From the NCBI RefSeq assembly GCF_036173125.1, contig NZ_CP108054.1, positions 3,782,001 through 3,846,000 on the forward strand: a DNA stretch of 64,000 nucleotides, given 5' to 3'. This DNA is from Streptomyces sp. NBC_00286 (GTDB taxonomy: Bacteria; Actinomycetota; Actinomycetes; Streptomycetales; Streptomycetaceae). This document shows, piece after piece, positions 43,692 to 46,818 of this stretch (position 1 is the stretch's first letter; the number at the start of each line of letters is the position of its first letter). The notes below the pieces were generated by a model that worked only from the letters and a program-made list of their open reading frames with translations, did not search any database and was not told the DNA's origin. The position numbers were made by a program, and so were the translations under genes.

Positions 43692-44897
43692 ATGCCCGCA
43701 GATCTCGCCGTCATCGGCCTCGGCCAGCTCGGCCTGCCCCTGGCCCAGGCCGCCGCCACCGCCGGCATCCCCACGCTCGGCTACCAGAGCGGCGACCCCG
43801 CACCGCTGTCCGCCGCCGAACTGCGCCGGATGCTCGCGGCAGGCTTCCGCCCGGCCACCGACCCCGCCGAACTCGGCCGCGTACGCACCGCCGTCATCTG
43901 CGCACCCACTCCCCGCGGCGCGGACGGCGGCCTGGACCTGTCCCAGGTGACCGCCGCCGCGAGCACCCTGGCCACATGGCTGCGTCCGCACACCACGGTG
44001 ATCCTGGAATCCCCCGTGTACCCGGGGACCACGGAGGAATTCCTGCGGCCTCTTCTGGAAGAGGGTTCCGGACTGCGCGCGGGCCGCGACTTCCACCTCG
44101 CCTACTCACCCAGCCGTGTCGACCCGGGCAACCGCGACCACACCCCCGCCAACACCCCGAAGGTCATCGGCGGCCTCACCCCCGCCTGCACCGAGTCGGC
44201 CGCCGCCTTCTACGGCCGACTCACCGACAAGGTGGTACGCGCGCGTGGCCCCCGCGAAGCGGAAACAGTGCAGCTCCTGGAGACCAACTACCGGCACGTC
44301 AACATCGCCTTGGTCAACGAAATGGCCGTACTCTGCCACGAGTTGGGCGTCGACCTGTGGGACGTAATCCGCTGCGCCGAGACCAAACCCTTCGGCTTCC
44401 AGGCCTTCCGCCCCGGCCCCGGAGTCGGCGGCCACGCCGTCCCCCGGGACCTCGCGGGCCCCAGAACCCGCGCCCTGCGCATGGTCGAACTGGCCCAGCA
44501 GGTCAACGACCACATGCCCCAGTACGTCATCCAGCGCGCGGCCACACTCCTCAACGAACACGGCAAGTCGGCCCGCGGCGCACGCGTACTCCTCCTCGGC
44601 GTGACGTACAAGCCCGACCACGCCGACCAACAGGGCTCCCCCGCCCGCGAGATCGCACTCCGACTGATGGAACTGGGCGCCGCCATCACCTACGACGACC
44701 CGTACGTCCCCTCCTGGAGCGTCCTGGACCACCCGATCCCCCGCGCGGACTCCCTCTACGAGGCCACCGCCGGCGCCGACCTGACGATCCTCCTCCAGCA
44801 CCACCGCACGTACGACCTCCAGGGGCTGTCGGTGAAGGCACAGTTGCTGCTGGATACGCGGGGGGCTACGCCTACGGGGGCGGCGCATCGGTTGTGA
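43692..44897 (+). CDS. Nucleotide-sugar dehydrogenase (UDP-Glc/GDP-Man family)
   Basis: 401 aa from the ATG at 43692 (MPADLAVIGLGQLGLPLAQA). NAD-binding Rossmann motif GLGQLGLPLA. The central domain has ETNYRHVNIALVNEMAVLCH with the conserved Asn. The catalytic-Cys segment of the family (GPGVGGHCIP) is here GPGVGGHAVPRDLAG, so the expected Cys is Ala. The C-terminal UDPG_MGDP_dh_C domain is present (LLGVTYKPDHADQQGSPARE). Without the Cys, classical four-electron oxidation to a uronic acid is doubtful. It may be a degenerate or repurposed member. Confidence 0.88.
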   Translation: MPADLAVIGLGQLGLPLAQAAATAGIPTLGYQSGDPAPLSAAELRRMLAAGFRPATDPAELGRVRTAVICAPTPRGADGGLDLSQVTAAASTLATWLRPHTTVILESPVYPGTTEEFLRPLLEEGSGLRAGRDFHLAYSPSRVDPGNRDHTPANTPKVIGGLTPACTESAAAFYGRLTDKVVRARGPREAETVQLLETNYRHVNIALVNEMAVLCHELGVDLWDVIRCAETKPFGFQAFRPGPGVGGHAVPRDLAGPRTRALRMVELAQQVNDHMPQYVIQRAATLLNEHGKSARGARVLLLGVTYKPDHADQQGSPAREIALRLMELGAAITYDDPYVPSWSVLDHPIPRADSLYEATAGADLTILLQHHRTYDLQGLSVKAQLLLDTRGATPTGAAHRL

Positions 44898-44973
44898 AGG
44901 GGGGCGCGTGCGGGAGGTTGTGCGTCTGGGGCTGGTGGCGGGTGGGGCGGGTCCGCGGCTAGCGTGGGGACAG

Positions 44974-45080
44974 GTGGAGCCCACCGCAGGTGGCACTGCG
45001 GCAGGCTCCTGGATGGTGAACGGAGTGTCCGCCCCTAGCTCTCGTGGGGGTGGCCGCTCTCCAACCGAAGATCCGCAAGG
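44974..45080 (+). ncRNA. Tandem structured RNA candidate, copy 1
   Basis: Stem I: GGAGCC (44976) with GGCTCC (45004), and inside it CCGCAG (44984) with CTGCGG (44996). Stem II: GAGTGTCCGCCCC (45023-45035) with GGGGTGGCCGCTC (45047-45059), one mismatch only. TAGCGT (44960-44965), a -10-like box, lies exactly 8 bases before GTGGAGCCC. The same arrangement is repeated 162 bp downstream. A short frame (VNGVSAPSSRGGG) also runs through stem II, so a small peptide is an alternative. Strand is taken from the -10-like boxes. Confidence 0.5.
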
Positions 45081-45135
45081 TCACCACATCCGGCAGCCGA
45101 GCCGCCGGACGGCGGATCCGGTACCGTACAAAAGG

Positions 45136-45241
45136 GTGGAGCCCACCGCAGTGGCTGCTGCGGCAGGCTCCTGAAAAGTGAACGGAGTGTCCACCCCTAG
45201 TCCTCGTGGGGGTGGCCGCTCACCTTCCGTAAATCCACAAG
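45136..45241 (+). ncRNA. Tandem structured RNA candidate, copy 2
   Basis: Same two stems as copy 1: GGAGCC (45138) / GGCTCC (45166) enclosing CCGCAG / CTGCGG, and GAGTGTCCACCCC (45185-45197) / GGGGTGGCCGCTC (45209-45221). A G-U pair in copy 1 is an A-U pair here, and loops differ in sequence, as expected if structure is conserved. TACCGT (45122-45127) again stands 8 bases before GTGGAGCCC. Confidence 0.5.
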
Positions 45242-45422
45242 ATCCACCTCCTCCGGCACTTCACCATCCGCAGACGGATACAGTCCCAGCGGGTGGGCTT
45301 GCGGTGACGACCCATGGGTGCGCCCCCTTCCATGACGCCGCCCATCAGCCCGGTGGACGGTCCATTGGAGCTCGGGCCGGGCCCCGAGGGCCGGGGTCCG
45401 GAAACGTTCTCCTTGGAAGGGG

Positions 45423-45446
45423 GCGCCCCAGAGAACCGGGGCGCCG
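45423..45446 (-). terminator. GC-rich hairpin
   Basis: GGCGCCCC and GGGGCGCC form an 8-bp stem around AGAGAACC. It lies between the structured elements and the 3' end of the guaB3-like gene, and could terminate either transcript. Confidence 0.55.
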
Positions 45447-45623
45447 AACAGGACACTATCGCCCCACTACGCCCGTTCAGCCCACATTCGCCCCAAACGC
45501 AACCACGCGCCCCCCTCTCACAACCCGCGCTCCCACCAGCCCACTTGGGCACAGCAAAGGGGCCCGGTCGCCCACACAGGCAACCAAGCCCCTCCCTCCG
45601 CTCAAGCCGAGCGCAGCGTCACG

Positions 45624-46748
45624 TCACCGCTTGTGCTGCGAGTCCGCCACCGTGACCTCAACGCGCTGGAACTCCTTCAGCTCGCTGTACCCGGTGGTCG
45701 CCATCGCCCGCCGCAGCGCCCCGAAGAAGTTCATCGAACCGTCGGGGGTGTGCGAGGGACCCGCGAGGATCTCCTCGATCGTGCCGACCGTGCCGAGGTC
45801 GACCTTCTTGCCGCGCGGCAGCTCTTCGTTGACGGCCTCCATGCCCCAGTGGTGGCCCTTGCCAGGGCCGTCCGTGGCGCGGGCCAGCGGGGAGCCCATC
45901 ATGACCGCGTCGGCGCCGCAGGCGATGGCCTTCGGGAGGTCGCCGGACCAGCCGACGCCTCCGTCCGCGATGACGTGGACGTACCGCCCGCCGGACTCGT
46001 CCATGTAGTCCCGGCGGGCCGCCGCCACGTCCGCGACCGCCGTGGCCATCGGCACCTGGATGCCCAGAACGTTGCGCGTGGTGTGCGCGGCGCCGCCGCC
46101 GAAGCCGACCAGGACACCGGCCGCGCCCGTACGCATCAGGTGCAGCGCCGCCGTGTATGTGGCGCAGCCGCCGACGATGACGGGGACGTCCAGCTCGTAG
46201 ATGAACTGCTTCAGGTTCAGCGGTTCGGAGGCGCCCGAGACGTGTTCGGCCGACACCGTCGTACCGCGGATCACGAAGATGTCGACGCCCGCGTCCACGA
46301 CGGCCTTGGAGAACTGGGCCGTGCGCTGCGGAGAGAGCGCGGCGGCGGTGACCACGCCCGAGTCGCGCACCTCCTTGATGCGCTGCCCGATCAGCTCCTC
46401 CTTGATGGGAGCCGCGTAGATCTCCTGGAGCCGGCGGGTCGCGGCGTCCGGGTCCAGCTCCGCGATCTCGTCGAGGAGCGGCTGCGGGTCCTCGTACCGC
46501 GTCCAGAGGCCTTCGAGGTTCAGTACGCCGAGGCCGCCCAGCTCTCCTATGCGGATGGCCGTGGCCGGAGAGACGACCGAGTCCATGGGGGCGGCCAGGA
46601 AGGGCAGCTCGAAGCGGTAGGCGTCGATCTGCCAGGCGATCGAGACCTCCTTCGGGTCTCGCGTACGGCGGCTGGGGACGACGGCGATGTCGTCGAAGGC
46701 GTACGCCCGGCGGCCGCGCTTGCCGCGCCCGATCTCGATCTCAGTCAC
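45624..46748 (-). CDS. GuaB3 family IMP-dehydrogenase-related protein
   Basis: 374 aa from the GTG at 46748 (VTEIEIGRGKRGRRAYAF) with AGGGAAAGG upstream. A single IMPDH/GMPR TIM barrel without CBS domains. Signatures: FDDIAVVPSRRTRDPKEV, LPFLAAPMDSVVSPATA, VHVIADGGVGWSGDLPKAIA and AVMMGSPLARA. In the catalytic-Cys loop (GPGSICTTR in IMPDH) this protein reads GFGGGAAHTTRN, with His where the Cys should be. It therefore may not be a standard IMP dehydrogenase or GMP reductase. It is co-directional with guaB, 291 bp downstream of it. Confidence 0.92.
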   Translation of the reverse strand: MTEIEIGRGKRGRRAYAFDDIAVVPSRRTRDPKEVSIAWQIDAYRFELPFLAAPMDSVVSPATAIRIGELGGLGVLNLEGLWTRYEDPQPLLDEIAELDPDAATRRLQEIYAAPIKEELIGQRIKEVRDSGVVTAAALSPQRTAQFSKAVVDAGVDIFVIRGTTVSAEHVSGASEPLNLKQFIYELDVPVIVGGCATYTAALHLMRTGAAGVLVGFGGGAAHTTRNVLGIQVPMATAVADVAAARRDYMDESGGRYVHVIADGGVGWSGDLPKAIACGADAVMMGSPLARATDGPGKGHHWGMEAVNEELPRGKKVDLGTVGTIEEILAGPSHTPDGSMNFFGALRRAMATTGYSELKEFQRVEVTVADSQHKR

Positions 46749-46818
46749 GTTCTGTGGCCTTTCCCTCTTCGTTTCAGCGTCTTCCAGTATCACCGACGCC
46801 ACGAGCCGCAGGGGCGCG

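Follow-up and report, generated by a model that had tools for sequence, protein, structure and literature searches.

The region described here lies in a 64,000-nucleotide stretch of Streptomyces sp. NBC_00286 (the window), between two convergent genes: a nucleotide-sugar dehydrogenase gene on the plus strand (43707..44897; TIGR03026, 293 bits, above the cut-off) and guaB3, which encodes an IMP dehydrogenase-related protein, on the minus strand (45624..46787; TIGR01304, 654 bits, above the cut-off). Between them, a repeat search of the window found a 110-nt direct repeat (44973-45082 and 45135-45244) whose copies are 84% identical, start 162 nt apart and fold into two stems each on either strand, bearing out an initial annotation, made from the sequence alone, that had described two structured copies at this distance. 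When the copies were folded singly and compared with shuffled sequences, copy 1 gave −51.2 kcal/mol on the plus strand (z −2.8) and −48.5 on the minus strand (z −3.4), and copy 2 gave −51.1 (z −3.8) and −55.9 (z −5.5), respectively; stability above that of shuffles was clearest for the minus strand of copy 2. A further GC-rich hairpin at about 45559-45593, just past the end of guaB3, is judged by eye to be probably that gene's own terminator. The window also contains a c-di-AMP riboswitch (RF00379; 4461-4631, plus strand; 74.9 bits, gathering score 38), and no tRNA or tmRNA was found in it.

The search across Streptomyces proposed in the initial annotation, carried out at the DNA level on 150 genomes, detected relatives of the hairpins, and in 30 of the 30 loci examined (L009-L038) these sit between a dehydrogenase gene and guaB3, 14 loci having two copies and 16 one (E<1e-5). 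Such recurrence at one intergenic place indicates that the repeat did not arise by chance. In the source genome (G000), a covariance model of the element matched nothing outside this locus, and the DNA search found only weak, short matches to the copies elsewhere. Since 45135-45460 matched nothing in either the plasmid or the phage collection, an origin from such elements was set aside. No Rfam 15 family reaches its gathering score in the region, consistent with the earlier failure to recognise one; the best permissive match, to ar14 (RF02344) on the minus strand of copy 1, scores 16.1 bits against a threshold of 58.8, and the part aligned to ar14 skips a hairpin, so that the element is not a member of that family and was not assigned to any known one. 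Literature searches of main texts on Streptomyces small RNAs, type I modules, small proteins and the peptide string gave no entry recognised as this locus among the matches listed, nor was one met in the passages retrieved by term searches within PMC2422843, PMC3765725 and PMC6344877, papers that name SCO4771 (guaB3) or SCO4772.

The minus-strand reading frame and its leader

The initial annotation held that the region contains no convincing gene, a view contradicted by an unannotated 31-codon ORF, MGRHRKPTRWDCIRLRMVKCRRRWILWIYGR (45220..45315, minus strand; stop codon TGA at 45222-45220), which adjoins the repeat directly upstream on the minus strand and varies among relatives as a coding sequence would. 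In 21 relatives retrieved via the hairpin rather than the protein, variants in the frame of the ORF show a synonymous excess (26/65 synonymous vs 35/223 nonsynonymous; p=5.5e-5, with variants treated as independent), and the other five frames of the same relatives give p>=0.1. Altogether, 26 of the 30 hairpin-found loci yield a peptide that fits our search rule, 21 of them exactly 31 codons long; by eye, the four missed loci have a K-to-R change (L024), non-ATG starts (L028 and L035) or an internal deletion (L025). A second set of ORFs was collected with a DNA pattern in which codons 2-12 are prescribed, which makes their conservation a product of the search itself; its 101 loci comprise 80 of a first set and 21 held out. 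Over the free codons 13-31 of 72 ORFs in this set, the excess is weaker (18/39 synonymous vs 37/132 nonsynonymous; p=0.028), variants again being treated as independent and the hairpin-found and pattern-found sets overlapping. The ORF is 31 or 32 codons long in 77 of 81 units (the 80 first-set loci and the window) and in 19 of the 21 held-out loci. Exceptions include loci in which the stop is lost (L026, L037, L069, L101 and L159), the frame is disturbed (L108, L147 and L162) or the usual start is absent (L083). Comparison among relatives shows that, as judged from its sequence variation, this Arg/Trp-rich ORF of 31 amino acids is under coding constraint.

The consensus peptide has 31 residues, 12 of them Arg or Lys and one acidic, and a GRAVY of −1.0; the corresponding values for the window's peptide are 11 Arg or Lys and −0.9. 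Its amphipathic moment is no greater than that of shuffled sequences, and the idea of an amphipathic toxin therefore gains no support from the hydrophobic moment. Searches with the ORF protein matched no family in Pfam, NCBIfam or PADLOC and no relative among solved structures, and a 42-residue relative used as query against 5.8 billion predicted proteins had one match only, a hypothetical protein of 48 residues. The proportion of basic residues in the consensus (12 of 31) suggests a peptide that may bind nucleic acids or membrane surfaces.

Both the ORF and the repeat occur in part of the genus. The ORF was found in 33 of 150 Streptomyces genomes (E<=1e-3) and in 31 of 297 genomes of the family, all in one of 17 genera. 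The covariance model found the element in 34 of the 150, of which 33 were counted because that of G040 lies elsewhere in its genome, and in 24 of 119 genomes of the order, with one weak match (E=0.0016) outside the genus. In the same 150 genomes, then, the ORF is present in 33, the element in 33 and both in 31. Two genomes carry the ORF without a model match to the array (G027 and G125, the latter retaining a piece of the element), and two carry the element without the ORF (G009, where most of the ORF is deleted, and G133, where none is recognisable). Of the 101 named records, 99 carry Streptomyces in their titles, the remaining two being labelled Kitasatospora aureofaciens and Actinobacteria bacterium. 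Twenty-six genomes, 24 lacking the ORF together with G027 and G125, were probed for the dehydrogenase gene. In the 24 without the ORF, guaB3 lies inside the stretch retrieved in 17 and outside it in 7; the gap to guaB3 in those 17 measures 31-208 nt in 8 genomes and 723-1314 nt in 9, the longer gaps often holding another gene by eye. An apparently unrelated gene with an MSQ or MTQ start stands in place of the unit in L173, L174, L181-L184, L187, L189 and L191, again by eye, and L176 seems to retain a decayed remnant some 50-100 nt past the dehydrogenase stop codon, with the ORF start present twice in a short repeat and no hairpins.

Upstream of the ORF, a Shine-Dalgarno sequence, GGAAGGGGG (45323..45331, minus strand), ends 7 nt before the ATG, and the exact motif occurs within 22 nt of the ORF start in 75 of 81 units. 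It falls within a leader (45317..45429, minus strand) in which a long stem, built from a 16-nt inverted repeat of 94% identity (arms 45414-45429 and 45317-45332), pairs the Shine-Dalgarno sequence and encloses two hairpins. In folding predictions the Shine-Dalgarno sequence pairs with a CCCUUCC arm in 69 of 69 leaders and in 18 of 18 held-out leaders, all of them leaders that contain the arm; in the 69, the mean probability of its being unpaired is 0.005, compared with 0.293 after mononucleotide shuffling with the last 20 nt kept. The arm is absent in 7 of 81 units (L075, L094, L098, L108, L126, L138 and L141) and in at least 2 of 21 held-out loci (L151 and L161; L153 is incomplete), and because at least nine ORF carriers lack it, such a lock is not universal. 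These nine arm-less carriers are natural unlocked variants that would be useful as controls. Covariation in the leader is modest (6 double-change pairs vs 2.1 in shuffles, for the window's fold), and in many sequences an upstream hairpin appears, by eye, able to compete with the Shine-Dalgarno stem. The leader stem is thus predicted to bury the Shine-Dalgarno sequence in most carriers. Further upstream, TAGTGT (45453..45458, minus strand) is a candidate −10 box for this unit on the basis of conservation, 63 of 70 units having a TANNNT motif in the corresponding stretch ahead of the leader.

The folded 3' element and the strand of its fold

Read on the minus strand, each copy of the repeat consists of two hairpins. 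Copy 2, the proximal copy (45138..45231), scores 103 bits against the covariance model, in whose alignment it is itself a member, and the distal copy 1 (44976..45069), also found by the repeat search, scores 95 bits. The first hairpin of copy 2 takes in the stop codon of the ORF at its base, and its helix also holds the last codons of the ORF; in most carriers the stop codon likewise lies within the basal helix. The second hairpin of copy 2 (45138..45171, minus strand) is a predicted terminator-like site with 14 pairs, including a tandem U-G/G-U, and is followed by a U-rich tail, CCTTTTGT (45128..45135); terminator-like sites here were predicted on the minus strand only. The 14-pair helix keeps standard pairs in 807 of its 812 cells across 58 proximal copies (from 79 units with a copy) that fit our parsing pattern, which itself demands a similar hairpin and restricts some positions, although not the U-G and G-U pairs. 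Helices 3 and 4 are 99.4% and 97.7% paired in 28 sequences. Tails average 3.43 T per 8 nt in 58 parsed outermost copies and 4.55 in 44 inner ones, against a background of 14.8%, with the T-richness falling at positions 4-8 after the hairpin on the minus strand; T counts of 3.43 and 4.55 in 8 are weak by E. coli standards. Two features expected of an intrinsic (rho-independent) terminator, a stable GC-rich hairpin (here of 14 bp) and a U-rich tail, are thus found on the minus strand, and the second hairpin resembles such a terminator. It differs from the usual kind in its short tail, in the stop-codon hairpin that precedes it and in its repetition in up to five tandem copies.

Copy number varies among carriers, and the pair of copies that led the initial annotation to speak of twins is incidental, arrays in relatives running from 1 to 5. 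Of 81 units, 79 carry one or more copies after the ORF (42 have one copy, 32 two, two three, two four and one five) and the remaining two have none, some of the loci being incomplete; the 21 held-out loci have one (9), two (11) or three copies (1). Spacing within arrays is bimodal (80-119 nt for 37 of 46 distances, 150-179 nt for the other 9). The five-copy array is that of L111, and L109 and L137 have four copies each. Identity within arrays reaches 98-100% for some copies, including those of L109 and L137, which points to recent tandem growth there; across multi-copy arrays, however, only 17 of 83 copies are most similar to another member of the array they belong to.

Which strand's RNA is selected was assessed from wobble pairs, since a G-U pair on one strand is an A-C mismatch on the other, cells of each type being counted for the fold of each strand. 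In the terminator helix of the 58 proximal copies, the minus strand has 109 G-U-type and 3 A-C-type cells; at two of the helix's pairs most species show U-G and G-U, where others have C-G, G-C or A-U. Over the whole element in 71 parsed proximal copies (10 of 81 units were unparsed), the fold of L096, used as reference, gave 243 G-U and 8 A-C cells and 97.3% pairing on the minus strand, compared with 214 and 98 cells and 91.0% for the plus fold, whose A-C cells lie mostly in the basal and terminator helices while its upper stem II is well kept. The counts depend on the reference, with 244/9 G-U/A-C (minus) and 150/69 (plus) when the window was used, and 242/57 and 107/179 when L078 was used. 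With the L096 structures fixed, 17 held-out copies gave 98.5% pairing, 59 G-U and 0 A-C cells on the minus strand, and 92.9%, 55 and 19 on the plus strand. Double-change pairs exceeded shuffles in the 71 copies on both the minus fold (11 vs 4.6; 0 of 300 shuffles reach the observed number) and the plus fold (12 vs 7.0; 0 of 300), so that covariation alone cannot settle the strand. In the set of 28 sequences the minus structure shows 97.0% pairing and 11 double-change pairs, a result matched by 0 of 500 shuffles, and versions of the structure slid along the alignment are at most 48.5% paired; all of these strand and covariation counts ignore relatedness, and the structure was drawn from the same sequences.

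Other measures divide between the strands. Consensus folding of unfiltered alignments with RNAalifold favours the plus strand (−43.9 vs −26.4 for 43 copies; −11.2 vs −9.8 for 122 copies), and, copy by copy, the minus strand has the lower minimum energy in 91 of 122. Stem II contains pairs that form on the plus strand only and are well kept in the 71 copies (A-U in 59 and G-U in 9; U-G in 70 of 71), among them a loop-closing pair (U-G 50, U-A 19, C-G 2). The G-U to A-U change noted earlier in stem II is indeed present when the plus strand is read. In copy 2 the minus strand has a strongly conserved 5-nt bulge, ACACU (45186-45190), the bases of which likewise find partners only in the plus-strand fold. 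In the leader the strands are not clearly separated by the wobble counts (G-U/A-C of 186/82, 208/70 and 190/55 for minus folds; 216/114, 222/107 and 242/103 for plus folds), and unfiltered consensus folding gives −40.6 for the plus and −36.0 for the minus strand. We conclude that, as the initial annotation had supposed, the RNA structure is under selection, with the pattern of substitutions pointing mainly to the minus strand.

Plus-strand signals and competing interpretations

The plus strand carries signals of its own. TAGCGT (44960..44965), outside the array, is a candidate −10 box on the basis of conservation, and a second box, TACCGT (45122..45127), precedes copy 2. Both stand in the window exactly 8 nt before GTGGAGCCC, as first described, yet this distance varies among relatives by eye, and boxes of the TACCGT type were seen, again by eye, on inner copies with the long repeat unit. 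The outer box is indeed conserved, a scan along the full length of each outermost flank having turned up a plus-strand TANNNT in 63 of 63. A CTGGTGGC-like block was recognised in 57 of these flanks and starts 26-28 nt before the box (44932-44939 in the window). Element-free loci (24 of 24) lack the combination of block and box in the 150 nt that follow the dehydrogenase gene, and the combination was also not found by the ORFs of G027 and G125. Being conserved, the box may start an antisense RNA. The plus-strand peptide frame (NGVS-x-PS-x-RGGGRSP), about which the initial annotation was rightly hesitant, has no synonymous excess (6/29 synonymous vs 21/70 nonsynonymous, p=0.89, in 67 of 71 sequences) and was rejected; the suggested comparison of covariation with codon-like change yielded covariation of paired bases and no codon pattern in this frame.

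The reading we favour, at a probability of about 0.8, is that a small protein-coding transcription unit lies on the minus strand between guaB3 and the convergent dehydrogenase gene in part of Streptomyces, and that the copies are its 3' end. Comparison shows a folded 3' element that, as read from the sequences, has the stop codon in its first helix and a second, terminator-type hairpin, and that is present in tandem, usually once or twice and up to five times. Minus-strand transcription would start near 45450, and translation would be held low by the leader until some signal or processing event opens the stem; the stop-codon hairpin and the repeated terminators would define and protect the end of the mRNA and stop it from entering the convergent gene.

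The original proposal, a plus-strand pair of small RNAs or leaders with no part played by the minus strand, can draw on the box and its spacing in the window, on the stable plus-strand folds and on the better consensus energy of the plus strand in unfiltered alignments. It has to accommodate a conserved ORF with a stop codon that falls in the element, terminator-like sites predicted on the other strand only, and basal and terminator wobbles that are G-U on the minus strand and A-C on the plus strand (98 A-C cells on the plus fold vs 8 on the minus; 19 vs 0 in the held-out copies); the strand test lowered its standing as the main reading, and we now consider it very improbable. Another reading takes the repeat as a terminator acting in both directions, or as a tandem DNA repeat, lying between convergent genes, and the ORF as decaying or unused; it would suit the convergent setting, the variable copy number, the 98-100% identity of some array copies and the occurrence of element-only remnants and broken ORFs. 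Coding constraint on the ORF, the predicted burial of the Shine-Dalgarno sequence and the conservation of the boxes speak against it, as does the hairpin near 45559-45593 that guaB3, by eye, seems to own, and we think it unlikely.

Somewhat more credible, if still doubtful, is an antisense-controlled module resembling type I toxin-antitoxin systems, in which an mRNA with a buried Shine-Dalgarno sequence encodes a harmful peptide and is silenced by a plus-strand RNA overlapping its 3' end. The Shine-Dalgarno pairing predicted in every leader folded, the plus-strand box at its near-constant distance from the block, the lack of both in element-free loci, the plus-only pairs of stem II and the short cationic peptide are all consistent with such a module; the lack of block and box beside the ORFs of G027 and G125 counts against it. 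In aapA/IsoA of Helicobacter pylori, as outlined in the relevant parts of PMC6733600 and PMC8309996, a 30-residue peptide is encoded by an mRNA whose structure hides the Shine-Dalgarno sequence, with a cis-encoded RNA on the opposite strand. The present locus is similar in its 31-residue ORF, predicted Shine-Dalgarno burial and conserved opposite-strand box, but its peptide is Arg-rich rather than membrane-spanning and matches no family, its Shine-Dalgarno sequence is predicted to pair with the 5' leader rather than through the 5'-3' interaction described in those parts, and it has tandem 3' hairpins. Membrane type I toxins are described as hydrophobic (PMC8309996, in its treatment of that class); with a GRAVY of −1.0 in the consensus and −0.9 in the window, and amphipathicity no higher than in shuffles, our peptide is unlike them and has no hydrophobic transmembrane helix. 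The ORF is below 60 amino acids, as in type I systems, and has a coding pattern; we do not claim membership, because the hydrophobic-toxin feature is missing and both toxicity and the antisense RNA are putative. An extension that joins the two strands in a compact regulatory module of a new type, in which an mRNA for an Arg-rich microprotein, locked at its Shine-Dalgarno sequence and with its stop codon embedded in the iterated hairpin-terminator array, is countered by an antisense RNA started just outside the array, copy number (1-5, differing among species) sets the balance of sense termination and antisense silencing, and the peptide may bind its own hairpins, is offered as speculation and is improbable as a whole.

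In conclusion, the repeat first noticed on the plus strand is real and conserved, although the initial annotation described it on the less likely strand; the case illustrates that reading the wrong strand can make an element resemble paired small RNAs. Favouring the minus-strand unit, we propose a new gene for a microprotein, its 3' end folded and repeated and its translation, in most carriers, subject to a predicted lock, the gene and its RNA element both lying outside Rfam, Pfam, NCBIfam and PADLOC. As a terminator the element would be of a known kind; what appears unusual is a 3' end in which the stop codon is enclosed in a covarying helix and the terminator is repeated up to five times. 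The natural series of one to five copies among Streptomyces would provide a way to test the effect of terminator or antisense dosage on a small mRNA.
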